39,694 bases of DNA from an uncultured bacterium (lineage in GTDB: Bacteria; Verrucomicrobiota; Lentisphaeria; Victivallales; UBA1829). Position numbers and translations under genes: made by a program. The DNA is taken from contig CASERY010000086.1 in assembly GCA_949290385.1 (NCBI GenBank), forward strand, positions 1 through 39,694. Reading direction: 5' to 3'. The first letter of the stretch is position 1. Every line of letters starts with the position of its first letter. Under the pieces are notes generated by a model, which searched no databases, was not told the DNA's origin, and worked only from the letters and a program-made list of their open reading frames with translations. This document shows, in pieces, positions 601 through 33,541 of the stretch.

Positions 601-2463
601 TCAGGCTTCTTCCTCAGCTTGCTGCTGTTTCATCATAGCACTGCGCATGCGGCGGCGTTCCAGCGAGGTGAGATACTTTTTGCGGAGACGAACGTTCTGA
701 GGTGTAACTTCCACATATTCATCAGACTGGACATATTCAAGTGCCTCCTCCAGACTCATCTTCTGAGCAGGTGCAATTTTGAGTTTGTCATCAGAGGCTG
801 CAGCACGGATATTGGTCAGGCGCTTTGCTTTCTGAAGATTGACTTCCAGATCGTCACTGGTGCAGTGCTGTCCCACAATCATGCCTTCATAGGTTTGGAC
901 ACCCGGGTCAATAAAGAAGGTTCCAGTCAGCTGGAGTGCATCAATGGCATAGGCTTCTGCACGTCCCTGGCCCATGCTGATAATGACTCCCTGAGAGCGT
1001 CCGGGAATGGGACCTTTAAACGGTTCATAATGGTCGAAACGGTGAGACATGACTGCCTGTCCGGCTGTGGCTGTCATTACTTTTCCACGGAGTCCGATAA
1101 TGCCGCGGGTTGGAATAAAGAATTCCAGAAATTGGCGTGAGCCGTGCTATTCCATTTTGCGCATTTCACCGCGTTTCTGGCCGACAAGTTCAATGACTTT
1201 ACCTGCAGATGAATCCGGCACATCCACAGTGAGTTCTTCAATCGGCTCGTTTTTAACTCCGTCAATTTCTTTCGTAATGACCTGAGGTTTGGAGATTGTC
1301 AGTTCAAAGCCTTCCCGGCGCATGGTTTCAATGAGAATAGCCAGATGAAGAACTCCACGTCCGCTGACTTTAAAACTGTCTCCATTTTCGGTTTCCTCCA
1401 CATGGAGTGCCGGATCGCGCTGCGTTTCCTTGTGTAGTCTTTCACGGATATGACGGCTGGAAATAAATTTTCCCTCCTGTCCGAAGAAGGGGGAATCATT
1501 AACTCTGAAGGTCATGGACAGAGTCGGTTCATCTACAGCAATCGGGGGTAGGGCTTCAGGATGTTCTGCGTCTGCTATGGTGTCTCCAATATCCAGGTTT
1601 TCAATCCCGACCATGGCGCACAGATCTCCGCAGTCTACATGATCAACTTCTTTGCGCCCGATTCCTTCAAAAACGAAAAGCTGTTTAATTTTGACCGGAG
1701 AAGTGGACCCGTCATGCTTGATCTGAACCAGCGGATCGCCGGTTTTGAGTGTGCCGCGATGAACACGGCCAATGCCGATTCTTCCCACAAAGTCATTATA
1801 ATCTAAGGTGGAAACCTGAATCTGTTCCGGTCCTTCCCGCATTTCAGGCGCAGGAATGTATTCAAGGATGGCGTCCATCAAGGGGAGAATGGATTTGGGT
1901 TTATTTTGGATATAATCCTGAAGATTTTCAATTTCTTTGGCATCGCGTGTGGCCCAGCCGTTTTTGCCGGATCCATAGAGAACCGGGAAATCAAGCTGTT
2001 CATCATCGGCATCGAGATCAATGAAGAGATCGAATACTTCGTTGAGGACTTCCTGAGGACGGGCATCAGGTCGGTCAATTTTATTGATGAATACAATTGG
2101 TTTCAAATGAAGCTGAAGTGCCTTTTGCAGGACAAAGCGCGTTTGGGGAAGGGGACCTTCTGCGGAATCCACCAGAAGAAGGACACCGTCTGCCATATTG
2201 AGTACTCGCTCCACCTGGCCTCCGAAATCGCTATGGCCTTGAGTGTCAATGACATTGATTTTTACTCCCTTGTAATTGACACTGATATTTTTGGACAGAA
2301 TGGTGATACCCCGTTCCCGTTCAAGTTCATTGCTGTCCAGAAAGCATTCATGCATTTCCTGGTTGCTTCTGAAGATCTTAGCTTGTTTGATAATTTCATC
2401 GACCAGCGTGGTTTTTCCATGGTCAACGTGCGCGATAATAGCAATATTTCTGATGTTTTGCAT
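601..2463 (-). CDS. typA: Ribosome-associated GTPase TypA/BipA, with one in-frame UAG
   Basis: Translational GTPase of about 620 residues that acts on the 70S ribosome in stress and assembly. The conserved start MQNIRNIAIIAHVDHGKTT holds the G1 motif, followed by DTQGHSDFGG (G3) and FINKIDRP (G4). EF-G-like domains and the TypA C-terminal domain follow. An in-frame TAG at 1147-1149 (codon 439) falls in GEMRKME-UAG-HGSRQFLEF. The same frame continues with FIPTRGIIGLRG, a strongly conserved TypA block, to a TGA at 601, giving normal family length. Without readthrough the C-terminal RNA-binding domain would be lost. ATG 2463 fits the family; ATG 2493 after AGGTG is an alternative, adding ten residues. 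Confidence 0.93.
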
Positions 2464-2651
2464 AGTGGTGTCGGTTTCCGGGGGTTGAATCATTTTCACC
2501 TGTCATTTTTTCAGAGGCTATAATATACCTGCATTTTCTGAAAAATCAAATGGTTCTGCCCGGGTTTCAGATCATTCCAGAAAGACTGTGTTTCTCTATA
2601 AATTCAGTTCAGAAGCATCCATTCTGATAAACGGAAAAGATGAAGACAAAG

Positions 2652-10659: not shown

Positions 10660-11026
10660 AGGACGGTAAAAAATGAGGTTTGTCTATTCTGCTTTGGGAG
10701 TCCAGCAAGGATGATAACTGTTTTATGAATTCAAGTTTGAGGCAGAGTTGTGTTTTTGCTGTTGAACAGATGCAGGACGTAGTTACGCGAGCAGAATCTG
10801 TCTGAGTGGAATCCTTTTGAGGTGGAATGGCTCTCTTTTTTTAGATTTTATTCGAATCCTAAAGAAAAGATGGAACAAGCCTGTTCTGCTGCTGTTCTAT
10901 GAATCGTTTTTCTGAAGAATTTGGAAAAGGATTCGGCGAGAATTCTTGTTTTCGTTACAGTTTTTTCCTTCCCATACTATAAGATATGGGAAGATGGTAT
11001 CATTTTTAGATTTACAGAGGAGAAAA
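10660..11026 (+). other. Intergenic region before the sialidase-like gene
   Basis: 367 bases without a credible gene in either strand, even when TAG is allowed as sense; the longest reading is about 26 codons. The right end contains the inverted repeat described separately and a good ribosome binding site (AGAGGAG) before ATG 11027. A TTCGAAT string near 10848 is not part of a tRNA: the flanking bases do not pair. Confidence 0.6.
10969..10992. promoter_or_regulatory. 8-bp perfect inverted repeat upstream of the sialidase-like gene
   Basis: TTCCCATA (10969-10976) and TATGGGAA (10985-10992) are exact reverse complements around an 8-base centre, CTATAAGA. The centre includes a TATAAG that could be a -10 box. 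The site ends 34 bases before ATG 11027. Symmetry and position suggest an operator for a dimeric regulator overlapping the promoter. No regulator is encoded next to it. Confidence 0.5.
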
Positions 11027-12157
11027 ATGAATTTTTCTTATGCATCTCTTGATCCGGTTCCTGTAACAAAACCGGGGCCGCACTGTGCAAAGGAATTGCG
11101 GACCCATCAGGGAATTCCGGGGATTGAACGTTTGGAGTCCGGCCGAATCTTTGCGGTTTGGTATACGGGCGGAAAGAGTGAGTGCCGGGAGAATTACGTG
11201 GCAATGTCCATCAGTGATGACAATGGTACTACCTGGTCTGATACAGTGGCGGTTGTTGATCCGCCGCATCCGGATGTCCGGGCATTTGATTCCACTTGCT
11301 GGATCTCTCCCAATGGAAAGTTTTACTGGTTCTGGTCTCAAGGGTGTGGCGGAGCTGACGGGGCAGGGGAGATATTTGATGGAATCGGAGGCGTTTGGTT
11401 TTCCATTTTGGAAAACCCTGATGATGATCCGGATCAGTTTCACTTTACTCTGCCCCGCAGAATTTCAAACGGAATTATGATGAACAAGCCTACAGTGCTT
11501 TCCGACGGGACATGGGCATTTCCCTGTTCGGTGTGGACCGGACCTTATCGAAAACATGAGTCATTGAATGCCGTTCAAGGGGCAATGATGGTGGTTTCAG
11601 AAGATCAGGGAGAGACATTTTATCTTCGTGGCAGAATTGATATGAGCAATGTTGATGGCGGTCCGGTCTTTGATGAGCATATGTTTACAGAATTGTGCGA
11701 CGGCCGGATCCTATGCAGCATCCGGGTATAGAAAGGCATTGCGGAAAGCATTTCCAGCGACGGAGGACGTTCATGGAGCAAATCGGAACTTTCAAAAAGA
11801 TTTTCTGGACCTAATTCCCGTTTTTTCATTCGCCGTCTGAGATCCGGACGTCTTCTTCTTGTCAATAATGATTCCAGAATCAGACGCGAGAAAATGACCG
11901 CATTTCTTTCCGATGATGATGGTATTAGCTGGCCGTATCATCTCCTGCTGGACGGCCGGGAAAATGTTTCCTATCCAGATGGAACAGAGGCACAGGATGG
12001 CAGACTTTATCTGATTCATGATTTTGCACGGAGCAATGGTGGATATATTCTGCTTTCCAGGATTACGGAATAGGATATTCTTGCCGGATCACTGGTTTCC
12101 TCCAGTTCTGAGCTTTGTCTGGAAGTAAGTCATTCGAAACCCGTTCTGAATTTATGA
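11027..12157 (+). CDS. BNR-repeat sialidase-like glycoside hydrolase, two in-frame UAGs
   Basis: A 376-residue cytoplasmic-looking (no signal peptide) six-bladed propeller protein of the exo-alpha-sialidase-like family that is expanded in Lentisphaerae and Planctomycetes. Asp-box-like repeats include SISDDNGTTW, SSDGGRSW and SDDDGISW; other family blocks are GRIFAVWYTGG and YLIHDFARSNGGYILLSRI. TAG at 11729-11731 (codon 235) lies in CSIRV-UAG-KGIAESISSDGG. A second TAG at 12071-12073 (codon 349) lies in SRITE-UAG-DILAG, where relatives typically read TEEDILAG. Translation then reaches a TGA at 12155. Without readthrough the second half of the propeller is missing. ATG 11027 follows AGAGGAG. 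The actual substrate is unknown. Confidence 0.85.
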
Positions 12158-15458: not shown

Positions 15459-16553
15459 TTAATGTTCCCGAGGAAGAAGATACGGTTTCCCAGGAGTCAG
15501 ACTGAAGGAGCTGCTGCTCCCCGGGAGAAGCAGTTCAATATTTCTTTCCACCTGCATTTTCCTGCTGAGCTGATCCAGAAAGTCAACCAGGGAATCTGTT
15601 CCGGAATTATAATGGACAACGCTGTAGTTTCCGGATGTAAGGTTCTACAGTTCTGCTGCCAGTTTTTCTGCATCGTCAAAATATCCGAGCTGATCTACCA
15701 GATTCAAATTCAACGCTTGTTCTCCAGAAAAGATTCTGCCGTCGCCAATGATGCCGCCTGTAATCTGATCCAGGGGAATATTCCTGCTTTCAGACACAAT
15801 GGAGGCAAATCGCTGATATACTTCCATGAGAATACGCTGAACAATTTCTATCTGCTCGGGAGACGGCTCCGGGCCTGCTCCGTTCAGCATAGCCTTCATG
15901 TTTCCAGATGTATAAATCTGGGGTTTGACTCCGATTTTTCCGAGCAGCTCAGAATAATTGTAAGACTGCATAATGACTCCGATACTTCCCGTAAGCGTCA
16001 AAGGATGTGCCACTATCTTATCGGCGCCACAGGCAATATAATAACCTCCGCTGGCTGCTATTGAACCCATCTGAGCTACTACTGGTTTTTTGCATTCTTT
16101 CAGTGCTCTGTAGATCTCATCGGAAGGAACGACTTCTCCGCCGGGAGTATTCAATGTTACGATGATCGCTTTTACATTGTGATTCTGTTCGGCTTTTCTG
16201 ATCTGTCGAATCACTTTCTGAGCCGTTACACTGTAGGTGGAAGCAAAAAGGTTTTCATCGCTTTCCGAAGTAATGACTCCGTCAATGGAAATAACAGCTA
16301 TTTCCGGAAAAATACTGTTCGTTTCTTCTGTTTGATAATGCACTGAAATATCTTTAACAGCAGAAACCAGAAGGGAAAAAAGAACAACCGGCAGAATGAA
16401 CAGACCCAGAAGACTTGCCATGCAGCCGCACAGACACCCGCATCCAAGCAGCGAGGCCTTATTCTTTTTTGAATATCCTGAACTGGTTGTTTTGACATAG
16501 ACATGCGGATTCGGATTCCGGTCATTTTGTTCGTTGTTCAAATCCTGATTCAT
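15459..16553 (-). CDS. sppA: Signal peptide peptidase SppA, one in-frame UAG
   Basis: Membrane serine protease that degrades cleaved signal peptides. The 364-residue product has a polar cytosolic N-terminus, a run of four alternating cysteines CGCLCGC (38-44), one membrane segment (about 45-66) and an S49 domain. This domain contains IVTLNTPGGEV, the serine block GSIAASGGYYIA and GSIGVIMQSYNYSELLGKIGV. An in-frame TAG at 15645-15647 (codon 303) follows EKLAAEL. The frame then runs 61 codons (NLTSGNYSVVHYN near the join, PGKPYLLPREH at the end) to a TAA. A VV.Y strand and a YLLP ending are typical of SppA tails, so the longer form is the real gene. It starts 35 bases after the pfkB-type stop. 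Confidence 0.9.
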
Positions 16554-16588
16554 TTTATCTTATCATGTGTTGAATTGTTTACGGAATT

Positions 16589-17521
16589 TTAATTCTCTTT
16601 AATGTAGTCGGTAAACGGAAAAAGTTCAAATGCCTTTTCCCGTTCAAAGACTCCCGGAGAATCTGTAAGACAGTTGGCGGAAGCTGCAGCAAGTCCGTAG
16701 CGAAACGCTTCAAGAGGAGCTGTTCCGCTGATAATTTCACTGAGCATGACAGCAGAGCACACATCTCCGGATCCAATGGTATTGACGGCCTTAGGAATAG
16801 CTGGCACTGTAATGCGCCATAGGTTTTTCTCCCGGTCGCCAAACCAGGCGAAACTGGAGCCTTCTGTAACAGCCAGATGACGGATTTTAAAAATTTCGAA
16901 AGCCTTTAAAATGGCTTGTTTCAAATCTTCTACCCCGGTAATCTGGCAGAGTTCCTCCCGGTTGACTTTCAGAATATCCACCGGATATTGAAGAGCCTTT
17001 TCCACATGCATAAAGGAATCCAGCAGAACCATTGTCCCGGATTCAACGGCTGTTCTTACAAATTTAGCGTAGCAGTCATCTGGAATTCCAGGAGGATAAG
17101 TCCCGCAGATGGCCAGACCGTCTGCATGGGTGAGATCGGAAGAGATTTCTTTAATAAGCCATTCAGCTTCTTCTGCCTTTACGTGGGGAGATGGTTCCAC
17201 AAGCTCTGTGGAAAGTCCGGTTTTTTCACAAATCTATGTTGTACATGTCCTGGTGCGTGCGGCGATTTCCCGGGTACAATGACAGATTCCTTCCTCATTC
17301 AGATAGTTCAACAGTTTTTGTCCGGTCGTTCCACCTGCAAACTGGTATACGCAGGGAACTGCTTTTCCCCAGTTTCTGACAGCTCTTGCCGCATTGATGC
17401 CTTTGCCGGATGCCATGGATGCAGCGGAACGGGCACGATTGACAGACCCCTTCTTGAATTCCGGGAAAAACAGGGTTTTCTGCCATGCCGGGTTGAATCC
17501 GATAATGCAAATTTTATTCAT
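16589..17521 (-). CDS. PfkB-family sugar-phosphate kinase (1-phosphofructokinase/LacC type), one in-frame UAG
   Basis: The product (310 residues) resembles the FruK/LacC branch of ribokinase-like enzymes: start MNKICIIGFNPAWQKTLFF, the GKGINAARA block (GKG.N.A), LDILKVNREEL and the anion-hole motif GSGDVCSAVML with the catalytic Asp (usually GAGD). A TAG at 17234-17236 (codon 96) sits in RTRTCTT-UAG-ICEKTG, followed directly by STELVEPSP, a signature stretch of this family. The TAG occupies a strand position where homologues usually have Leu, Ile or Val. The kinase active site lies beyond it. ATG 17521 follows AAGGA. Substrate is probably a fructose or tagatose phosphate, unproven. It ends in TAA. 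Confidence 0.87.
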
Positions 17522-17610
17522 CAGTATATCCTTGGATGCTGTTTTTTGATTCGGGTGTATGAACGCAATTCCGGAAATATCCTGGAATGAATCCATTTTC
17601 TTTTTCTTGT

Positions 17611-17868
17611 TTATTTCAGTTCAAGTCCCATCCGGTTCAAATCCTGGATCAACTCCTTTTCGTTGAAGGCCTTGCCGGGCCTCCAGCTTCCGTTGAATTC
17701 AATGGTGGGGACCACCCATTCGCCTCCATTGACTTCATCCACTTTGCGGACAACATCTTCAGGAGCCTCTTCTATTTCCACATAATGGAACGGGATGTTT
17801 CTGGATTTTAGAAAGGCCACTGTTTTCTGACAATGGGGACACCATTTTGCTGCATAGACAGTCATCAT
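17611..17868 (-). CDS. Glutaredoxin-like protein
   Basis: An 85-residue thioredoxin-fold protein with active site AKWCPHCQ, the TVPxI-like cis-proline loop WVVPTIEFNG and a C-terminal FNEKELIQDL helix. It belongs to the small glutaredoxins (YruB/NrdH/Grx group) that reduce mixed disulfides or a partner enzyme. ATG 17868 fits the family; an AAGGAG lies 11 bases upstream. An in-frame TTG six bases earlier has better spacing and may be used. It is the second gene of the minus-strand run, after the M14 peptidase. It ends in TAA. Confidence 0.85.
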   Translation of the reverse strand: MMTVYAAKWCPHCQKTVAFLKSRNIPFHYVEIEEAPEDVVRKVDEVNGGEWVVPTIEFNGSWRPGKAFNEKELIQDLNRMGLELK

Positions 17869-21516: not shown

Positions 21517-22685
21517 GGAGCGGGCCATTGAAGTTGCTGAAGCAGAATCTCTTGAAAAAGAAGTTTTTTTCGTTTCCGGCTGCCGGTGCCGCAGGACTGG
21601 TGATTCTTGGTTTGTGGGGATGTCTCCTGATTTATTCATCCAAGGCATTCGGAGGTAGTCCGATGCATTTTGTGGACCGTCAGCTGGTGTGGCTCGTGAT
21701 GGGAGCGGCTGGATTTATAGCGGCTTCCATGGTGCCTTTTGAAATCTATCAGAGAGTACGGGTTCCTTTTTTTATTTTGTCCGTCATCATGCTGCTGTGC
21801 GTTCTTTTGTTCGGTGTGGAGATCGGCGGGATGAAGGGATGGTTCCGCCTGCCTGTTCAGAATGTTTATTTCCAGCCTTCAGAACTGGCAAAGATGGCAT
21901 TTATCCTCTATCTCTGTGGAATAAAAAACGAGGGAGAGAAGCAATCGGAATTTGCCCGGTTTGCCCATATGGCTCTGGCAAGCTGCATCATGTGCGCACT
22001 TCTTCTGCTGGAACCGGATCTGGGGACATGTGTGCTGTTTTTTGGTGTTTTTTTAACGATATACTGGGTTTCCGGCGGATGGATTCGTTACATCCTTCTT
22101 TCCGCAGGGCTTTTCCTGGCTGCATTTTTTACTTTTATCTTGGCAAATCCGTATGCCATGGATAGGATCCGCGGTTTTCTGGATCCGGGTTCCTCTGTCT
22201 GGCGCAGTTCCTGGCATATCCGGCAGTTTCAGTATACGATGGCACATGGCGGTGTTGCAGGTTCCGAAACGGGAGGCGCCATGTGGGCAAATGCCTACTT
22301 GCCGCTGCCGCATTCAGATTCACTTTTTGCCACAATTGTGGAATCATCGGGACTGATTGGAGGAATGATTGTAATTGCGGGATTTGCCTGTCTTCTTCTG
22401 GCCTTTGGTGCTATGGCATTAAGACGGCATTTAAGCGACTGTGCGAAGTTGTTCATTTTTTCGACGGGCTGCCTCTATTCTGTTCAGGCGCTTCTGCATA
22501 TCAGTGTGAACACAGCATTGATTCCGCCTACAGGGCTGACTCTGCCGATTCTCAGTTACGGAGGAAGTTCTCTATTGACGACAATGCTGGCATTCGGTAT
22601 GGTTTTCAGTGCATCCAGAAGTTCTGATGACGAAGGGGATTTACAGGAAGAAGAGACTGAAAGTTTTTCCGGAGAACACCGCTGA
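21513..22685 (+). CDS. ftsW: SEDS-family peptidoglycan polymerase FtsW/RodA
   Basis: A polytopic membrane protein of 390 residues with about ten hydrophobic segments. Diagnostic blocks: YFQPSELAKMAF, LLLEPDLGTCV, the extracellular-loop LPLPHSDSLFATIVESSG (its Asp aligns with the catalytic Asp of RodA), and IPPTGLTLPILSYGGSSL. SEDS proteins polymerise glycan strands from lipid II together with a class B PBP. Here the preceding partner gene has only a dimerisation domain. ATG 21513 overlaps the upstream TGA (ATGA); a TTG at 21528 preceded by GAGGAG is an alternative. Context in a division cluster favours FtsW over RodA. It ends in TGA. Confidence 0.9.
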   Translation: MRSGPLKLLKQNLLKKKFFSFPAAGAAGLVILGLWGCLLIYSSKAFGGSPMHFVDRQLVWLVMGAAGFIAASMVPFEIYQRVRVPFFILSVIMLLCVLLFGVEIGGMKGWFRLPVQNVYFQPSELAKMAFILYLCGIKNEGEKQSEFARFAHMALASCIMCALLLLEPDLGTCVLFFGVFLTIYWVSGGWIRYILLSAGLFLAAFFTFILANPYAMDRIRGFLDPGSSVWRSSWHIRQFQYTMAHGGVAGSETGGAMWANAYLPLPHSDSLFATIVESSGLIGGMIVIAGFACLLLAFGAMALRRHLSDCAKLFIFSTGCLYSVQALLHISVNTALIPPTGLTLPILSYGGSSLLTTMLAFGMVFSASRSSDDEGDLQEEETESFSGEHR

Positions 22686-22857
22686 ACCTATTCAGATTTG
22701 TCTCAAGAAGACTGACGGATGCAGCTTTAAGCTCTTTTCGCATGACTTAAAATATCGGTCGTTTTTTTGTGCTGCAAGAGAAAAACAGCTTGATTTTTAC
22801 ATTGCGTTTGTGCTGTTAGGGCATCTTTCCTTTTTTTTCATTTTTTTTGAAAAATCA

Positions 22858-22886
22858 TTCGACTTTTTGACCATTCGGCGTAATAT
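22858..22886 (+). promoter_or_regulatory. Possible promoter of ftsA-ftsZ
   Basis: TTCGAC (22858-22863) and TAATAT (22881-22886) are 17 bases apart in the 235-base ftsW-ftsA gap. A ribosome binding site CAGGATCCT follows before ATG 22921. The -35 box is a poor match to TTGACA, so this is tentative. The rest of 22686-22920 has no gene. Confidence 0.35.
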
Positions 22887-22920
22887 ATCAATGACGATTA
22901 CACATGAGGGTCAGGATCCT

Positions 22921-24171
22921 ATGGCATATGGAAAGAATTTGTATACATTATTTGAATTCGGGACAGATAAGATCTGCGTTTTGAGCGGTATCTGCGGAAA
23001 CGGCAGGCCTGAAATTGTTTCCTTTGTACAGAAAAACAGTGGCGGATAGGTGGTTAAAGGTACAATTGTCGACTATAACGCCATTGTAAGTATATTGAAA
23101 GATGCTCTTGAGATTTCAGATAAAGCTATTGGGGCTTCTTTTGAGCGGCGAAAAGTTTTCTATCTGCTTTCCGGCGGTGCCATTACTTCCTATCAGGGAG
23201 AAGGATCCGTTCTGGTGGACAGCCCTGACCGCAAGGTTACTGCAAAAAATATTAATGACGCTACGGAAGAAGCTCAGAAGACGGCATTGTCTACAGACCT
23301 GAGCAATTTTAATTCTTTTGATTCCTACTTCCTTCTGGACCGCAGCAAACGGGTTTCCGATCCGTACGGTGCGATTGCGGAGCGTCTGGATGCCTATTTG
23401 CATATTATTGCTACTGAAAAGAAGCAGATTGAGAATTTGAATGCGGTCTTCCGTGAACTCGGTTTTGAAAACGGGGGAATTCCGGTTTTTTCCGGAATCG
23501 CGTCAGCCTTCGGAGCTTTGAGCATGGAGGAGCGGGAGAAGGGGGTTTTCCTGGTGGACTTCGGAGCTGGATGCTGTGATTATGTAATGATTCATGATGA
23601 CGGCGTCCTTCTGAGTGGTGTTCTGCCTGTGGGAATTGCCCATGTGGCCAATGATTTATCTATCGGTCTGAGTCTTCCTTATGATTACTGTATGCGCTTC
23701 CTGCGGGAGTCCCGGCTGGAAGAGCTGCGAAAAAAAGGACAGAATTTTATTGAATATGCTGATGTAGGAGGTCATAAACGCCGAATTCCCCTGGACTCAT
23801 TTGAGAAAATTATGGATATGCGGCTGCGTGAAACCTTTACGATTCTTCGAGAATATCTTGAAAATCAGGATTTACTGCGACTGGTGAATACCGGAGTTGT
23901 TCTGTGCGGAGGAGGGGCGTTGATTCCTTCGTCTCCGGAGATTATGCACGATGTGTTCCGCAGTCATGTCCGTATCGGTGAACCGAGCGGAATAACAGGG
24001 GCCATGAGTGCTTTTGAATATGCTCCCGCCTGTTACACAGCGATTCAGGGACTTCTGAAGTATGCGGCTGATTATGAAACGGAGAAGCCGGAATCTGCCA
24101 TGGATGGATTCCGGGATATGATTGCAGGGCTTGGAGAAAAATTCCTGCCCAGATCCAGGAGGGAAAAATGA
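22921..24171 (+). CDS. ftsA: Cell division protein FtsA (divergent), one in-frame UAG
   Basis: Actin-like membrane anchor of FtsZ; 416 residues. Start: MAYGKNLYTLFEFGTDKICV (the GTxK-type phosphate-1 loop as FGTDK). After SFVQKNSGG comes TAG 23047-23049 (codon 43), then VVKGTIVDYNAIVSILKDAL, the conserved FtsA KG.I.d....v..i..a. Further blocks: VFSGIASAFGAL, FLVDFGAGCCDY (phosphate-2), and LVNTGVVLCGGGALI (adenosine motif). The tail GEKFLPRSRR could be the membrane-binding helix. Without readthrough the protein would lack its first ATP-binding loop. It ends in TGA, overlapping ftsZ by ATGA. The identity call rests on these motifs and on position before ftsZ. Confidence 0.85.
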
Positions 24172-25472
24172 CACAGGATGATCTTCTTGATGTTCTGCCG
24201 GAGACCTGTGCTGTACCGCCTAAACCTCAGTCCCATGTGCTGGCTATGGGAATCGGGGGAGAAGGAGTACGGGTGATTGATGCTCTGTCCCGCATGGAAT
24301 CGGCAGACTGGCTTCAGACTGCAGTTATTGATACGGATTCATCCGGTTTAAAAAACTGCAGGGCCCACTGTAAAATCAATGCATCTTCCGACTGGTCTAT
24401 TCAGGATGGTTCCGGATGCGGAGGCGATGTGCTTAGAGGAGGACGCGCTATTGCCAGAGAACGGAGCAATATTTCCGCACTTCTCAATGACATATCTCTG
24501 CTTGTAGTGACTGGAGGTCTCGGTGGAGGAACAGCAACAGGCGGAATCCGTACAATTGCATCGGTAGCGCGTTCCGCAGGTATTCCAGCCGTGTTTCTTG
24601 TGACCACGCCTTTTTCCTTTGAATCCTACAGCCGTCGGAAAAATGCCGATGACTGCATCGATGAACTTCTTCCGGTTACAGATATTCTGCTGACAATGCC
24701 CAATGATCTGCTTTTTACCCAGCTGCCTCCGGATACTCCGGTAGAGCAGGCTTTTGCAACCTAGGCAAGGGAAGTTGCTCAAGTGATGGCCGGAATTGCT
24801 GATGTCATGCGTTGCAGAAGCGTGATCGGTTCCGATTATGCCACCTTTATGGATGCTCTCAGAGGCAGGCGTTGTTCCTGTGCGGTTGGCGTGGGCTATG
24901 CCAGCATTTCGGATGGACTGGACCGGTGTACTCTGGCGGTTGAACGTATGCTGGAATCTCCATTTCTCGGAGGAATGAAACGTCTGAAGAATTCAGATGC
25001 CGTGCTTTTTACACTGAGCGGCGGGACGGATCTTCAGATTGCGGAAATGAAGCGTTCCCTGGAAATTGTTTCCGGCATGCTGCCTGTGGAAGCCAATGTG
25101 ATTCTCGGGGTTAATACCTGCGAGGCTCTCACCGGCAGAATCCAAATGACTGCTGTCTCTGTAAAATACGATCAGAATCCTGCAAAAACGGTTTCTGATT
25201 CCTCCAGGAAACGGAAAACCTGGGAAGCTCCTGCTGCTGTCAGCAGAACAGCTCAGCGAAATGGACGCGGAAGCAGAGATTTCTCAGGAACACGGGGAAA
25301 GCATGCTGGAAATGATGATTTGTTTGAAGGGACGTTGAAACAGGGGGAACTGGGTCTGATGAGCCTGAGCAGGGGGATTTTCGAAAAGACTCCGCTTACA
25401 AAGTATCAAAATGAGGATTTGGATGTCCCCACATTTCAACGGAAAAATATAACGATTGATGCCGGGAATTAA
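24168..25472 (+). CDS. ftsZ: Cell division protein FtsZ (divergent), one in-frame UAG
   Basis: Tubulin-like GTPase that forms the division ring; 434 residues. It shows GIGGEGVRVIDAL (GxGGxGxN loop with Arg-Val in place of the Asn), the tubulin signature GGLGGGTATGG, VTTPFSFE and the C-terminal FtsA-binding peptide LDVPTFQRK. TAG 24762-24764 (codon 199) lies in PVEQAFAT-UAG-AREVAQVM, i.e. helix H7 where FtsZ usually has AFR.AD.VL. The catalytic T7 loop follows the TAG and reads IGSDYATF rather than INVDFADV: the first Asp is kept, the second is Thr. The region after residue 330 is a variable linker. ATG behind GGAGGG. It ends in TAA. Confidence 0.87.
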
Positions 25473-25512: not shown

Positions 25513-26442
25513 ATGAAGCAAAAGTTTTTTTTCTGGATAATTTGCTGTATATGTCTGATAGAAAGTATGATTTTGCTTGCTGGCTGTTCTTCATCCGGGA
25601 TGCAGGAGGTGCCGGTCATTGATGCGGACCGGGCATGGATGTATACTGAAAAAAATGTGTCCTTTGGACCGAGACCGTCCGGATCGGAGGCATTGAAGAG
25701 ATCCGGAGAATGGATTGAAGAATGTCTCAGACAGGTTCCTGGAAATTTTGAAGTGGAATGTTCTGTGTTTGAAAAAGCGGCACCTTTGGGGAAGACTCTT
25801 TTTAGAAACTATACAGTATCCTGGCCGGGACCGGGAGATGATTTTATCATTCTGGGGGCTCACTATGATACCAAAATGTTTTTTTCAGGGGCGGATTTCC
25901 TGGGAGCGAATGACGGCGGGTCCGGTGTGGGGGTGCTTCTGTAGATTCATGAGAAACTGGGGACCTTGAACGAGCTGCCGATTGGAATTAAACTGGTTTT
26001 TTTTGACGGGGAGGAATGCACGTTTCAGTATGGAGAACATGACGGGCTCTGGGGAAGTCGTTTTCAGGCAGAAAACTGGGAAAAATCCGGGCTTCTTAAA
26101 AACTGCCGGGGAATGATTCTACTGGATATGGTTGGAGATAAAGATCTAGCATTTACTGTTCCCCAGAATGTGGACCCGGAGCTTCGGAAATGGGTTTGGG
26201 AGGAGGCCGGCAGACTTAAGTATGAAAAGCATTTGACAGATTTTCATGGGGAAATTCTGGATGACCATGTCCCTTTTCTGGAGAAAGGAATTCCTGCGCT
26301 GGTTTTGATTGACTTCCTGTACGGTCCGGGTAATTCTTACTGGCATACGCCGCAGGACCAGCTGGATAAATTGTCCAAAGAAAGTTTAAAATGTGCGGGA
26401 GATCTGGCTCTTGCTGTTGTCTGGCGCATTGCCGGACAATGA
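25513..26442 (+). CDS. M28-family/glutaminyl-cyclase-like lipoprotein, one in-frame UAG
   Basis: A 309-residue secreted lipoprotein: hydrophobic leader and lipobox LAGC (Cys25). The zinc-binding fold is read from LGAHYDTKMF (His, Asp region), GANDGGSG (Asp), FFDGEECTF (Glu), LLDMVGDKDL (Asp) and YWHTPQD (His). FDGEE and DHVPF are especially like glutaminyl-peptide cyclases. TAG 25942-25944 (codon 144) is in GVGVLL-UAG-IHEKLG; most relatives have Glu here (LLELAR). Half of the zinc ligands are downstream. It may cyclise N-terminal Gln or act as an aminopeptidase. Its TGA overlaps a possible ATG of the next gene. Confidence 0.87.
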
Positions 26443-26483: not shown

Positions 26484-27377
26484 ATGAACCATATAATCAA
26501 ATCGTGGATACGCCGAAAAAACGGAACACTGTACAGAAACGGGCACAATCATTTTGTCTTGTTTCCGGATGGAGATTTCGACCGGGTGAAGGCTCTTCTG
26601 GCGGATTTTGGGAAAGTTCAGGAGAATTCTCTTCTGATGAAAAGTTCCAGAACTACAACGGCAGGCATTGCCGGAATGGGACAGAATGATGAGCCTATTT
26701 TCTGGAAACGGAACAACAACAAAGGTCTTCGTTTTACTTTGCAGTATTTATTTCATCCGGCAAGGGTGTTCAATGCTGCGATGGCTGCAGATTATCTGGA
26801 GGAACTGGGAATTGCAACGCCTAAAGTGCTGGCTGTGGGAGAGTGCCGTATTGGCTGTTATCTGAAGTGCGGATATCTTCTGACGCAGTCTTCGAATGAT
26901 ATTCATCAGGCGAGTCAGATTTTTTTGGAAATCTCAGATCCGGAGCCTTTGTTAGAGTCATTTTTCAGCTACTGCGGGAAAACGGTTGCAAAACTTCATG
27001 ACGGATACATTATTCATGGCGATTTGAAGATCAGCAATTTCTATTATTTCGGACGCTGGACTCCAGATGCAGCTTACGGTATCTGGGATCTGGATTCTGT
27101 AAGAAAATTCAGAAGCGAACCGGATCCAAAATTGAAAGTCCGGGAATTGTCCAGGATTATATCCTCCATTCTGATTCAGTCGGATGGAAATCCGTTGCTG
27201 CCTCAGTCATTTTTCGATCCGGAACGGCTGACACGCTTGCTGCTTGCAGAATATGCTAAAAATGTAAAAGGAGCATTTGTTCCTGAAGTAGATGAAGTGA
27301 AGCAGGCTGCCGAGGAGCGCTGGCTGAGTGAGGAGGGGTTGATGCACTCGGAGAAGTACCGGAATGAGCATTGTTGA
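26484..27377 (+). CDS. LPS-type (InaA/WaaP-like) kinase 1
   Basis: A small protein-kinase-like enzyme of 297 residues. Seen: KSSRTTTAGIAG then FWKRNNNKGLRFTLQYLF (ATP-binding lobe with Lys), the catalytic loop IIHGDLKISNFYYF (HxDLKxxN) and the metal-binding IWDLDSV (DFG-like). Lipopolysaccharide core kinases (WaaP, KdkA, InaA group) phosphorylate heptose or Kdo; the natural substrate here is unknown. ATG 26484 is chosen; ATG 26439 would overlap the previous stop as ATGA and is equally possible. It overlaps the next kinase gene by 14 bases and ends in TGA. No in-frame UAG. Confidence 0.8.
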   Translation: MNHIIKSWIRRKNGTLYRNGHNHFVLFPDGDFDRVKALLADFGKVQENSLLMKSSRTTTAGIAGMGQNDEPIFWKRNNNKGLRFTLQYLFHPARVFNAAMAADYLEELGIATPKVLAVGECRIGCYLKCGYLLTQSSNDIHQASQIFLEISDPEPLLESFFSYCGKTVAKLHDGYIIHGDLKISNFYYFGRWTPDAAYGIWDLDSVRKFRSEPDPKLKVRELSRIISSILIQSDGNPLLPQSFFDPERLTRLLLAEYAKNVKGAFVPEVDEVKQAAEERWLSEEGLMHSEKYRNEHC

Positions 27378-28428
27378 AAATTTTTGTGGTTTCCGAATTG
27401 AAAAGCATCATGGATGGACGTGGTATGTGTCCGGTCCGGATATTCTGGAAAACTGGTTTGATCATTATCGGGAACTTGAAAAGCATTTTGTAAAGCGCAA
27501 TCCTGTCCGCTGTGTTTTCCGTACTGTCTCCAGCAGTGGAGCTGAGTATTTTGTCAAGCACGATAGGCCTCATGGTCTTGCTGGCAGGATCAGGGCATGG
27601 TTTCAGCCGAAGGGGAAAAGTGAAATGAGGTCTTTTCTTTTACTTCGTTCCAGGAATGTGCCCTGTGCAGAATATGTAGCGTATGGCTGGCATGGGACAG
27701 AATCAATGCTGGTGACAAAGGCTCTGAAGGGATATCGTTCGTGCCTGGAATACTGGTACACGGAAGCGGCCGAAAATCCGGATGCTTCCTAGAAATTCCT
27801 GATGAAAAATGCTGCACTTATCAAGGTCCTTCGGGAAAAGGGGATTCGTCATCCGGATTTTCATGCGGGCAATATCATGTACTGTCCGGAATCTGCAGAG
27901 ATGGCTCTTATTGATGTTTACGGAATCAAGGCGGAAGCCTGCGGAAGGAAACTTTCAAAAAAAGATGAAAATCGGCTGCTTCATTTGCTGGTTGAATATT
28001 CCGGCAGACTGTCTGAGGAGGATGTTTTCAGATTGTTTGAGGAATGCGGATTGAATCTTTCCGGAAAGGAGATCCTTCTGCGCTGGCAGGAACTTCTTGC
28101 TGCGAATGAACGTCACATTTCCCACGAATGGCCGAAGCGCCGGAGACAAATTTTAAGCGGACACAGCAAGTTCTGCCGTCTGGCAAGCCCGGAAGATGTT
28201 CAGGTGGAGCTTGGAGGGCATCAGAAACTGATGATCAGGAATACGCCATATTTTACAGTACAGAACCCGGACTTGTCAAAACTCGGCATCGTGAAACTGT
28301 CCCATGAGGCGGCCGAAAATCTCTGGCTGGAATCCTTTCGGAAACAGCTTCTTCACAGAGAGGAAGAAACACGTCTTCCGCAGGCATGGCTCCAGAGGGA
28401 CGATGGCACAGATCTTCTTTATTTTTAA
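27364..28428 (+). CDS. LPS-type (InaA/WaaP-like) kinase 2, one in-frame UAG
   Basis: A 354-residue second kinase of the same broad family. The N-lobe includes VFRTVSSSGAEYFVKHDRP (Lys in a VKxD strand), and YVAYGWHGTESMLVTKAL. The catalytic loop is IRHPDFHAGNIMY and the metal site ALIDVYGIK. TAG 27790-27792 (codon 143) lies in NPDAS-UAG-KFLMKN, just before the catalytic loop, so the active site depends on reading through. Overlap with kinase 1 and the paired functions suggest that two sugars of one outer core, or two sites on one sugar, are phosphorylated. It ends in TAA. Confidence 0.8.
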
Positions 28429-28474: not shown

Positions 28475-28498
28475 CGCTCCTGTGTTTTAAGAGATAAC
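28458..28498. promoter_or_regulatory. Inverted repeat GTTATCTC-N25-GAGATAAC spanning the clpC promoter
   Basis: Two perfect 8-base arms (28458-28465 and 28491-28498) flank the -10 box and the predicted transcription start. The arrangement recalls heat-shock operators such as CIRCE or the CtsR box, but the sequence matches neither. A repressor site or a 5'-UTR hairpin that must melt are both possible. Confidence 0.55.
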
Positions 28499-28523
28499 AG
28501 AAATTTCAGGGAGTTGTTTACCT

Positions 28524-31175
28524 ATGTCGGAATTTGATGATATCAATGCCTGCATCCGCAATTTTACCCCCCGCGCCAAACGGGCTTTGATTTTGGCGCA
28601 GAAAGAGGCGGAGCGGTTTAATCATGATTCCATTGGGCCTGAACATTTGCTTCTGGGCATTTTACTCCTGGGTGAAGGTGTGGCTTTTGATTCTCTGCTG
28701 GCATTGAAGGTGAATCCGGATGAGATCCGCAGAGAAGTTGAAAATGGTCTGCCTGTTTCAGGCGGCGTCCGCCAGCAGGGCTCGGATACTTTCAATCTGC
28801 AGTTGCAGAAAGTGATTCTTCTTTCCCGCCGGGAAGCTCAGGCTATGGGATATAATTTTATTGGAACGGAACATTTGCTTTTGGCTGTACTTCAGGAGGG
28901 CTCAGATTTGGCAGCCAGAACGCTGTTTCACCATCAGATTACACCGGAAAAACTGCGCAGGCAAATCCAGATTTCTCTGGATCCGGAATATCTTCCGGAT
29001 GAAGGGACGGGTTCCGGGGCAAATTCTGCCTCCGGCAGCGAAAATACGGAACGTGCGGAAGGCAGTCTGGAAAGCGGCCAGAACGGGGAATGGCAGGCGT
29101 TGAATGCTTTCGGACGTGATTTGACAAGACTTGCCAGTCAGGGAAAACTGGATCCAGTGATTGGACGGACCGGAGAAATTGAACGAGTGATTCAGATTCT
29201 TTGTCGCAGAACGAAGAACAATCCAGTTTTGATTGGTGAGGCAGGAGTTGGAAAAACAGCTATTATAGAAGGACTTGCACAGAAAATAGCGTCTGGTGAT
29301 GTGCCGGATCTTCTGAAAAACAAGAAGATTTTTGCCTTGGACCTGCCATTGATGATCGCCGGAACAAAGTATCGCGGACAGTTTGAAGAAAGAATCAAGG
29401 CCGTGATTGATGAAGTCTCAACTTCCGGAAGAGTCATTCTTTTCATCGATGAACTTCATACCATTGTAGGTGCAGGCGATGCTGAAGGGTCGATGGATGC
29501 TGCGAATATTATCAAGCCGGCACTTTCACGCGGAGAACTCCAGTGCGTTGGAGCAACCACCTTGAATGAATACAGGAAGAGCATTGAGAAAGATGCTGCA
29601 TTGGAAAGACGTTTTCAGTCTGTTCTAGTGGATCCTCCGTCTCTGGAGGATGCTGTCAAAATTCTTCAGGGGTTGAAACATGTATATGAAAAACATCACC
29701 ATGTGCGTTATTCCGATGGGGCGATTGAATAGGCGGTACGTCTTTCGAACCGCTATATCAGTGACCGCTTTCTACCGGACAAAGCCATCGATCTGATGGA
29801 TGAGGCCGGGGCAAGAGCACGGATCCATCACAAGACTGTGTCTCCAGATTTTGCTGAAATGGAGGAGAAACTTGCTCATGTTCAGGCGGAAAAGGAAAAA
29901 GCCCGCTCAGAAGAACTTTTTGAAAAAGCAGCAGGTCTTCTACAAGAAGAACGGCAGTTGCGCAGCCAGTTGGATGCCGCTAGAAAAGCCTATGAAAATG
30001 AGGTGGAGAAATCTGCTGTGCGGATTACGGAACGGGAGATTGCACAGGTCCTTTCTGCACTCTGCGGCGTTCCTGTGCGGCAGATGGAGGAAGGGGAGCT
30101 GAAGCATTTGATATGTCTGGAGGCAGATCTTGGGAAAGAAGTTATTGGACAAGAGGAAGCGGTATCAGTTGTTGCGAAGGCTCTTCGCCGTTCCGGAGCA
30201 TCTCTGAAAGATCCGGAGCGTCCCATTGGAAGCTTTATTTTTCTGGGACCGACCGGAGTCGGGAAAACGCTTCTTGCAAAGTCTCTGGCCCGGGAGATGT
30301 TCGGTTCTGCGGATTCCTTAATTCAGATTGATATGTCTGAATATATGGAAAAGTTTAATGTAAGTCGTCTGGTAGGATCCCCTCCGGGGTATGTAGGTCA
30401 TGGAGAAGGCGGAGAATTGACTGAGCGTGTACGGCGTCATCCATACAGCGTTGTGCTGTTCGACGAAATAGAGAAGGCACATCCGGATGTGATGCACATG
30501 CTGCTTCAGATTCTGGAGGAGGGACGCCTGACTGATACGCTGGGAAGAAGGGTGGATTTTCGGAATACAGTCATTATCATGACCAGTAATCTGGGAGCAG
30601 AACAGCTCTCCAGAGGCGGATCTCTTGGATTTTTTACAGGAGCTCCGGATCGTGAAGCATCCAGAAAAGATCAGCTTCTGCAACAGGTGAAGAGAAATTT
30701 CAAGCCGGAATTTATCAACCGGGTAGACGAGCTTGTGGTGTTCAGAAGCCTGGATCGGGATGATCTGCGTAAAATTGTGCAGATTGAGACAGGAAAACTT
30801 ATCCAGCGGATGCAGGAGCAGAAGCTGACGTTGCATATTGCTCCGGAAGTTGTCGAGTTCCTGCTTGAAAAAAGCTGGCAGCCGGAATATGGAGCACGGC
30901 CGGTCCGCAGAACGGTCGAGAGAGAACTGGAAGATGTTCTGGCCCTGAAAATACTGGAAGGGGATTTTAAAAAATCTAAAGAAGTCTTTTGTTTTATGAA
31001 GGATGGAAAGGTGGATTTTTCCACAGAACTACCCTTTACTTTAAGTTCAGAAGAGTGTTTGGAAGAGAAAATACTTCCCTCAGAGGATTCTGGACTGCAG
31101 AAAAAGACTGGAATGAGTCGGAAAGCAAAAAGAAAATCTCTTTCATCCGGAACAGTTAAAAAGTCTTCAGAGTAA
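28524..31175 (+). CDS. clpC: ClpC-type AAA+ chaperone/unfoldase, one in-frame UAG
   Basis: An 883-residue Hsp100 protein. Two Clp-N repeats (about 1-150: [17 protein letters not shown] and [16 protein letters not shown]) precede AAA1 with Walker [10 protein letters not shown] (about 238) and [15 protein letters not shown] coiled-coil middle domain (about 425-470) is followed by AAA2 with [15 protein letters not shown] (about 575), [16 protein letters not shown] and [16 protein letters not shown] 29730-29732 (codon 403) lies in [19 protein letters not shown], followed by [15 protein letters not shown]. Homologues mostly have Ala at this column. Stopping there would remove AAA2. It probably works with ClpP. 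It ends in TAA. Confidence 0.95.
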
Positions 31176-31862: not shown

Positions 31863-33080
31863 ATGATGACAAACAATACAGGAAACAGCATAAAAAAAAG
31901 CTGTCTGGAGTCTGAAGCTCCATGGAAAACGCTGCTGCGGCGTTTCCTGGCACGAAAGACAGCCGTTTAGGGGAGTGCTTTTGTGCTGCTGCTGTTTCTG
32001 TTTTCTGTCTTTGCCCCTTAGATCTGCAATGGGGAGCCGTGGCTGGCATATTGTCAGGGGCATTGGCGGAGTCCGGCGCTGAGGAGTCTTTTTGCTCCTG
32101 ATGCCCAGGAAGTTTTTGTAGAAAAATTTTTCAATTATCTTTTTCTCCTGATCCCCAGTGAATGTCTGCTGTGGTGCATCTGCCGGAAGATAAAAAAAGT
32201 GTCTGTCAGAAGAGGGGTTTTCGTTTTTGCCGCTGTATTCCTGCTGATTCCGTTTTTTATGGTTTCGCCCAGGATGGAACACCATGACTGGAAAAAGCTT
32301 GCGGCTCAGGAGACTCCGGGGGAATTTTTTCTTTTTGCTCCGGTTGCTTTCGGTCCCACACAGACGTCTTCTGAAATTTATGGAAAACCTTCCCGCCAGC
32401 ATTGGTTCGGCACAGACCAGGTGGGGCGTGATGTTTTTGCCAGAATGCTTTACGGTGGCAGAATTTCTTTGGCGGTTGGTTTTTTTGCAACGTTGATTTC
32501 CATGGGACTTGGGACGGCAATCGGACTTTTTTCCGGATATAAGGGGGGAAAGATTGATTTGCTGGTGCAGCGTATGGTGGAAATTGTCATTTGTTTTCCG
32601 ACTTTTCTTTTACTGCTGATCCTGATGTCAATTCTGCTGGACTTCGGATCCAGACAATCGATCTTGCTGGTTATTCTGGTTCTGGGGTTTACAGGATGGC
32701 CCGGACTTTGCCGTCTGGTTCGTGGAGAGGTTCTGAAACAGCGTCAGATGGCTTATATTACAAGTTGTGAAAGTCTCGGTGTGCCGGTCCGGTGGATTTT
32801 ATTAAAGCACTTGCTTCCGAATGTGTCCGGCCCGATTTTTGTTTCCTTCACCTTTGATGTGGCAGGAGCCATCCTGGCGGAAAATTCTCTGAGTTTTCTG
32901 GGATTCGGGGTGCAGGACCCCGCGTCCAGCTGGGGGGAACTGCTGAAGCAGGCGTTTGCGGATCCGCTTCTGTACTGGAATCTGATGCTCTGGCCGGGAC
33001 TGGCTATTTTCCTGACTGTATGTGCCTTCAACTTTATTGCGGACGGCCTTCGCAAGTGCATTGATTTAAAATCATCATGA
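31863..33080 (+). CDS. OppC/YejE-type ABC transporter permease, two in-frame UAGs
   Basis: Inner-membrane permease of the peptide/nickel family. The C-terminal half has FGTDQVGRDVFARMLYGGR, six membrane spans, the EAA-like loop around ITSCESLGVPVRWILLKHLLPN, and ENSLSFLGFGVQDPASSWG. Reading TAG as sense extends the gene 112 codons upstream of GTG 32199. This gives the usual OppC start, with RRFLARKTAV before TAG 31968-31970 (codon 36) and GSAFVLLLFLFSVFAP before TAG 32019-32021 (codon 53). Next comes ICNGEPWLAYCQGHW, which resembles the NDKPLLV.Y.G.WYFP segment of YejE. The result is a 405-residue protein with an intact first membrane helix. No binding protein, second permease or ATPase gene is adjacent. 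ATG 31863 or 31866. It ends in TGA. Confidence 0.83.
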
Positions 33081-33094
33081 AAGGATTGAATAAG

Positions 33095-33541
33095 ATGTCT
33101 TCATCATCTGTTATTCGTTATAAAATGGAAGACGACTGTGGTGATCTGGTTCCCAGGAAAGCTCATGAGGATGATGCCGCATATGATTTGCGTTCCAGAA
33201 TCGATGTTGTAGCGGAGCCTATGCGTGTAACTCTGGTTCCAACCGGGCTCCATCTGGAGTTGCCTGTCGGGTTTGAGGCACAGATTCGGCCTCGGAGCGG
33301 GATGGCTTTGAAATATGCTTTAACACTGCTGAATACTCCGGGGACTATTGATGCAGGCTACCGGGGGGAAATTTGTTGTATTCTTTTCAATGCTGGAGAG
33401 AAGCCCTATGAAATCAAACGGGGTGACAGGATTGCACAAATGGTGATTGCCCGTTTGCCGGAAGTGGAACTGCTTGAAGCTTCAGAACTATCCGAAACCT
33501 AGAGAGCTTCCGGTGGATTCGGTTCTACTGGAAAATCCTGA
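33095..33541 (+). CDS. dut: dUTP pyrophosphatase, one in-frame UAG before motif V
   Basis: Hydrolyses dUTP to dUMP, keeping uracil out of DNA and feeding dTMP synthesis. The 148-residue trimeric-type enzyme shows all five motifs: I, DDAAYDLRS; II, RPRSGMALK; III, GTIDAGYRGEI; IV, RGDRIAQMVI; and V, RASGGFGSTG. Motif V comes only after TAG 33500-33502 (codon 136) in ELSET-UAG-RASGGFGSTG, followed by TGA. Motif V closes over the active site of the neighbouring subunit and is needed for catalysis, so the UAG must be decoded. ATG 33095 follows AGGA with 9-base spacing; an ATG at 33077 overlaps the upstream stop. Confidence 0.95.

Follow-up and report, generated by a model that had tools for sequence, protein, structure and literature searches.

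How can two TAG codons, 51 bases apart, lie in the frame of a transporter gene? The gene is found in the window, by which we mean the whole stretch of 39,694 nucleotides that was analyzed, and the window belongs to a fragmented 2.7-Mb MAG that is 78% complete and whose relatives are Lentisphaeria/Victivallales. The named GTDB relatives are MAGs of this lineage, many of them from rumen and gut; the genus of this MAG is represented by one genome, and approximately 1.03 Mb of the MAG was taken for comparison with related genomes. The permease locus comprises the following features:

31863..33080, + strand: OppC-type ABC transporter permease, full length with TAG as sense; 405 codons from ATG 31863, ending in TGA
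31968..31970, + strand: TAG1, where membrane helix 1 begins; A23 I13 T12 L8 in relatives; E. coli OppC has Ala
32019..32021, + strand: TAG2, directly after membrane helix 1; relatives L54 F17
32199..32201, + strand: GTG opening the table-11 ORF; not conserved as a start, codes for Val inside the frame

The initial annotation had proposed that two in-frame UAGs hide 112 codons of this permease, and both the coordinates and the frame are confirmed: ATG 31863 lies exactly 112 codons ahead of GTG 32199, with ATG 31866 as an alternative possible start. The table-11 ORF spans 32199-33080, beginning at the GTG as claimed, and opens further upstream when TAG is treated as sense. The extension is homologous throughout. 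The long form is found, at 51-68% identity and with sense codons in place of the TAGs, in every aligned relative that covers the N-terminal region, and the OppC_N family (PF12911) is matched by the extended reading only. Orthologues from the same family and order match this N-terminal region and have open frames of at least 387 aa in nearly all cases. None of the aligned relatives has an independent start at GTG 32199, nor was the short form that the initial annotation had set as its counter-case seen in any of them.

With TAG translated as alanine, OppC_N (31.6 bits) is followed by BPD_transp_1 (89.0 bits), both above their gathering scores, a domain order that identifies an OppC-type permease. 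The best NCBIfam score (Opp4C) rises from 266.1 bits for the short reading to 282.8 bits for the extended one (+16.7; cut-off 350). Of the earlier label OppC/YejE-like, only the first half survives: the microcin C permease model (YejE, NF011596) gave 145.3 bits against a cut-off of 439. OppC/DppC permeases (PF12911 + PF00528) have the same domain order and fold, and E. coli OppC (8z21) can be aligned to the window protein both in helix 1 and in the core, whereas the window permease has a long insert after helix 1, common to its Lentisphaeria relatives, and scores under every NCBIfam equivalog cut-off.

Reading through the TAGs restores the first membrane helix, as had been anticipated, and the predicted structure places it at residues 31-48 (pLDDT about 93-94). 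Of the two UAGs, said to flank this helix, TAG1 is residue 35 of the model, at the helix start, and TAG2 is residue 52, just after it. The TAG2 column is Leu/Phe in relatives, and the TAG1 column holds Ala, Ile, Thr, and Leu among 74 relatives; in E. coli OppC the corresponding residues are Ala (TAG1) and Met (TAG2). If UAG is read as an amino acid, the two apparent stops are ordinary sense codons, and the permease would be one uninterrupted polypeptide of ~400 residues in which each end of membrane helix 1 carries a UAG-encoded residue. A further candidate TAG-bearing orthologue, in genome G014 (L137), was rejected: one TAG there is the regular stop of the gene, and the protein that aligns has an open frame.

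A cause local to the permease gene does not hold, and programmed readthrough in one gene is ruled out because the TAG pattern is genome-wide. In the window itself, ten TAG-bearing ORFs match their own families across the TAG, including BipA, ClpC, FtsA, FtsZ, and SppA. TAG-bearing genes of the window are listed here, with the names of proteins assigned from motifs marked as such:

604..2502, - strand: TypA/BipA GTPase; TAG 1147-1149
10916..12154, + strand: BNR-repeat protein; two TAGs, 11729-11731 and 12071-12073
15462..16559, - strand: SppA peptidase; TAG 15645-15647; Ala in G012
16592..17620, - strand: PfkB-family kinase; TAG 17234-17236; relatives V
22579..24168, + strand: FtsA; TAG 23047-23049; relatives S4
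24078..25469, + strand: FtsZ; TAG 24762-24764; Ala best by at least 2.3 bits
25492..26439, + strand: M28 peptidase; TAG 25942-25944
27343..28425, + strand: Kdo/WaaP-family kinase; TAG 27790-27792
28491..31172, + strand: ClpC-like ATPase; TAG 29730-29732; 17 relatives A14 S3
33077..33541, + strand: dUTPase-like protein (name from motif); TAG 33500-33502; relatives D11

Across the MAG, TAG sites occur on more than 20 contigs, and the genes carrying them include BipA, ClpC, FtsA, FtsZ, SppA, TrpE, CarB, MreB, RuvA, TruA, and RF2. When the conserved genes of the MAG were aligned to two related genomes (36,576 codons), internal stops numbered 42 TAG, 1 TAA, and 13 TGA. The 42 TAGs are spread over 34 alignments, whereas the 13 TGAs are confined to 4 alignments between the MAG and ORFs of G012; these TGAs are probably spurious, the G012 ORFs being presumed antisense. 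Control alignments between the relatives contained 2 TAGs in 9,640 codons, both in one alignment. TAG frequency in conserved regions is ~1.2 per 1000 codons, similar to that of CTA. Among 57 MAG genes aligned as far as the C-terminus, the terminator was TAA in 35 and TGA in 22, and in none was it TAG. Taken at face value, the fragmented and incomplete state of the MAG could invite the view that the code is standard and that errors, pseudogenes, or contamination account for the TAGs, but sequencing or assembly faults of this kind would have to yield 42 TAGs against a single TAA, remove TAG from every examined terminator, and recur over many contigs in essential genes, all of which have their relatives in Lentisphaeria. 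We regard that view as extremely improbable, and UAG as almost certainly a sense codon in this genome.

The release factor complement of the MAG is consistent with UAG being sense. RF1 is the bacterial release factor that reads UAG. A TIGR00019 profile search of the 78% complete MAG recovered RF2 and one short protein resembling ArfB but no RF1, whereas RF1 is present in 33 of the 36 family genomes with this MAG counted (33 of the 35 others); in G012 it lies at C80:15876-16922. The RF2 of the MAG keeps the SPF motif, which is expected for UAA/UGA recognition. The remaining family genomes that lack an RF1 match, G016 and G042, were set aside: with 69% and 72% completeness and a ClpC free of TAG, they look merely incomplete. 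Incompleteness alone could likewise explain the absence of RF1 from this MAG, though we infer a true loss rather than an assembly gap. The sequence itself shows that UAG occurs in frame in many conserved genes and does not serve as a terminator, and that the MAG contains no RF1.

The identity of the encoded amino acid was approached through the residues that relatives carry at TAG positions. Among 64 well-aligned TAG sites in pairwise comparisons, Ala was found at 19, Glu at 6, and Gln, Leu, and Ser at 5 each, with other residues making up the remainder; Tyr, Trp, Cys, and Pro were absent from these 64 sites. Ala is enriched approximately threefold over its ~10% background (p = 6e-6 over all columns and 3e-5 over mismatch columns), and a mixture likelihood combining an encoded residue with background composition gave +8.5 to +10.2 nats for Ala, followed by Gln at +1.6 to +2.9. 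The pairwise method named all tested sense codons correctly in 3000 of 3000 draws. Profile scoring, in which A, S, Q, E, or L was put in place of TAG for ten proteins (TrpE, RuvA, SppA, BipA, MreB, RF2, TruA, FtsZ, OppC_N, and the ClpC lid), gave summed scores of 3316.8 bits for Ala, 3310.8 for Ser, 3308.2 for Gln, 3302.4 for Glu, and 3300.5 for Leu; these profile and pairwise sites partly overlap, which limits the independence of the two approaches, and profiles tolerate Ala in general. Given that UAG is sense, alanine is probably its meaning. An early amino-acid tally that pointed to Cys/Tyr was discarded as contaminated by antisense shadow ORFs.

UAG might instead mean glutamine, read by a near-cognate tRNA-Gln or a tRNA-Gln(CUA), a meaning it has in code-15 phages and in the nuclear codes of many eukaryotes. 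Both tRNA-Gln(CUG) and tRNA-Gln(UUG) are present in the MAG, the TAG sites of RuvA and CarB correspond to Gln in G008, and Gln, second in the pairwise likelihoods, won 19% of gene bootstraps (Ala 77.5%, Ser 3%). However, Gln occurs at just 5 of the 64 sites and leaves the Ala enrichment unexplained, and profile scores run against it in TrpE (-3.2 bits), FtsZ (-2.7), SppA (-1.9), and at OppC TAG1 (-2.3), which makes glutamine an unlikely meaning.

The fit to alanine is nevertheless partial. Only ~37% of TAG sites behave as Ala columns, the Ala share is 30% at TAG sites versus 62% at true Ala codons, and a pure-Ala model at TAG sites is 7.6 nats worse than background composition. TAG is one mutation from codons for Gln, Lys, Glu, Leu, Ser, Trp, and Tyr. 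Conserved non-Ala columns coincide with TAGs in the dUTPase-like protein (Asp), at OppC TAG2 (Leu), and in an ABC protein (His). The dUTPase-like TAG sits in a conserved C-terminal RGxGGFGS motif where Asp is found in 11 of 11 aligned relatives, and stands out as the single conserved site fitting Ala poorly. Weak conservation of TAG sites is what a young codon, first tolerated at variable positions, would give, and ambiguous decoding would give it likewise. In the latter case RF1 would have been lost without a dedicated tRNA, and several near-cognate tRNAs would read UAG, tolerated at variable positions only; most TAG sites do resemble background composition, and the incomplete MAG yielded no CUA tRNA. 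Yet TAG also stands in conserved columns of ClpC, FtsZ, TrpE, and RF2 (where relatives carry Ala), no obvious near-cognate tRNA would supply the Ala excess, and the Tyr and Trp missing from the 64 sites also speak against it. Ambiguous decoding therefore seems decidedly improbable, and alanine remains the reading we favor.

No tRNA with a CUA anticodon was present among 46 tRNA matches, pattern searches of the incomplete MAG gave no convincing candidate, and ARAGORN with introns allowed returned only noise from the MAG. The MAG also has no recognizable tRNA-Ile, several tRNA-Ser, or tRNA-Ala(UGC/CGC), so the UAG-decoding tRNA may lie outside the assembled part of the genome. One tRNA-like locus, G000:C164:65-149 (= L205:65-149, minus strand), has a long variable arm and CTTCTAAA in the loop region. 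It could in principle represent a class II tRNA that reads UAG as serine, the residue ranked second both by summed profile scores and in the column analysis of relatives, and it is the only unrecognized locus in the genome-wide tRNA-Sec list. Against this, its score of 19.4 bits with the tRNA-Sec model (E 0.375 genome-wide) is far under the gathering score of 47, its anticodon stem is broken, and a CCA end is lacking. ARAGORN does not accept the locus, and shuffled sequences reach an equally good free energy, while Ser shows no excess over background at the TAG sites. We therefore treat this locus as a weak lead for a suppressor tRNA and serine as a very remote candidate, less probable than glutamine.

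Together, these data make it highly probable that this genome follows a variant code, with UAG as sense and RF1 lost, and with UAG most likely specifying alanine via a tRNA outside the assembly. Under such a code, UAG would be a rare sense codon, translation would end at UAA and UGA only, RF2 would be kept as the factor for both, and UAG would be read by a tRNA absent from the assembled genome, most likely charged with alanine. The parts of this scheme that we infer are the true loss of RF1, which amino acid is inserted, and the tRNA that brings it.

In bacteria, UGA is reassigned to Trp in Mycoplasma and relatives and to Gly in Absconditabacteria/Gracilibacteria. These codes are likewise genome-wide changes from stop to sense in which the release factor reading the codon is lost or altered, but in this MAG the codon is UAG and the missing factor is RF1. 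Some bacteria and archaea insert pyrrolysine at UAG; this kind of code expansion was rejected here, as no PylS (TIGR02367) in the MAG exceeded the cut-off (best 20.2 bits, cut-off 178) and UAG occurs across housekeeping genes. According to a 2021 screen of 46,384 bacterial species with Codetta, UGA is the codon reassigned in all stop changes known from bacteria (PMC8629427). UAG does encode Ala in the mitochondria of Hydrodictyaceae green algae, where a tRNA(CUA) is related to tRNA-Ala (PMC6821328). The codon and the proposed amino acid are the same as in this MAG, although that case involves an organelle genome and ours a 2.7-Mb bacterial genome in which no CUA tRNA was seen. Code-15 crAss-like and other phages read UAG as Gln and share a gut-type habitat (PMC9523058), but the TAG-bearing genes here are cellular housekeeping genes in the cell's own genome, which has no RF1 match, and Gln is less supported than Ala, so phage code 15 was rejected.

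A change of UAG to sense in bacteria is not described in the literature searched, and we found no open-licence publication describing such a code for Lentisphaeria or Verrucomicrobiota, though a paper elsewhere could exist. It is probable that a non-reduced Lentisphaeria lineage captured UAG as an alanine codon after RF1 loss, which would be the first UAG reassignment known to us for a bacterial chromosome; outside organelles, no stop codon would have been turned into an alanine codon before. If so, the RF1/UAG route would be open in nature besides the UGA/RF2 route, in a genome of ordinary size, as a natural counterpart of engineered RF1-free E. coli. Furthermore, proteins of this lineage would be truncated in public annotation, and the completeness of its MAGs would probably be underestimated.

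Elsewhere in the MAG, a tRNA-Gly(TCC)/tRNA-Tyr pair occurs on two contigs (G000:C5:12990-13170 and G000:C158:16900-17076) with equal tRNA scores, reflecting either duplication or assembly redundancy. A ketose-bisphosphate aldolase-like protein (name from motif; L078:1099-2157, minus strand) contains three in-frame TAGs.
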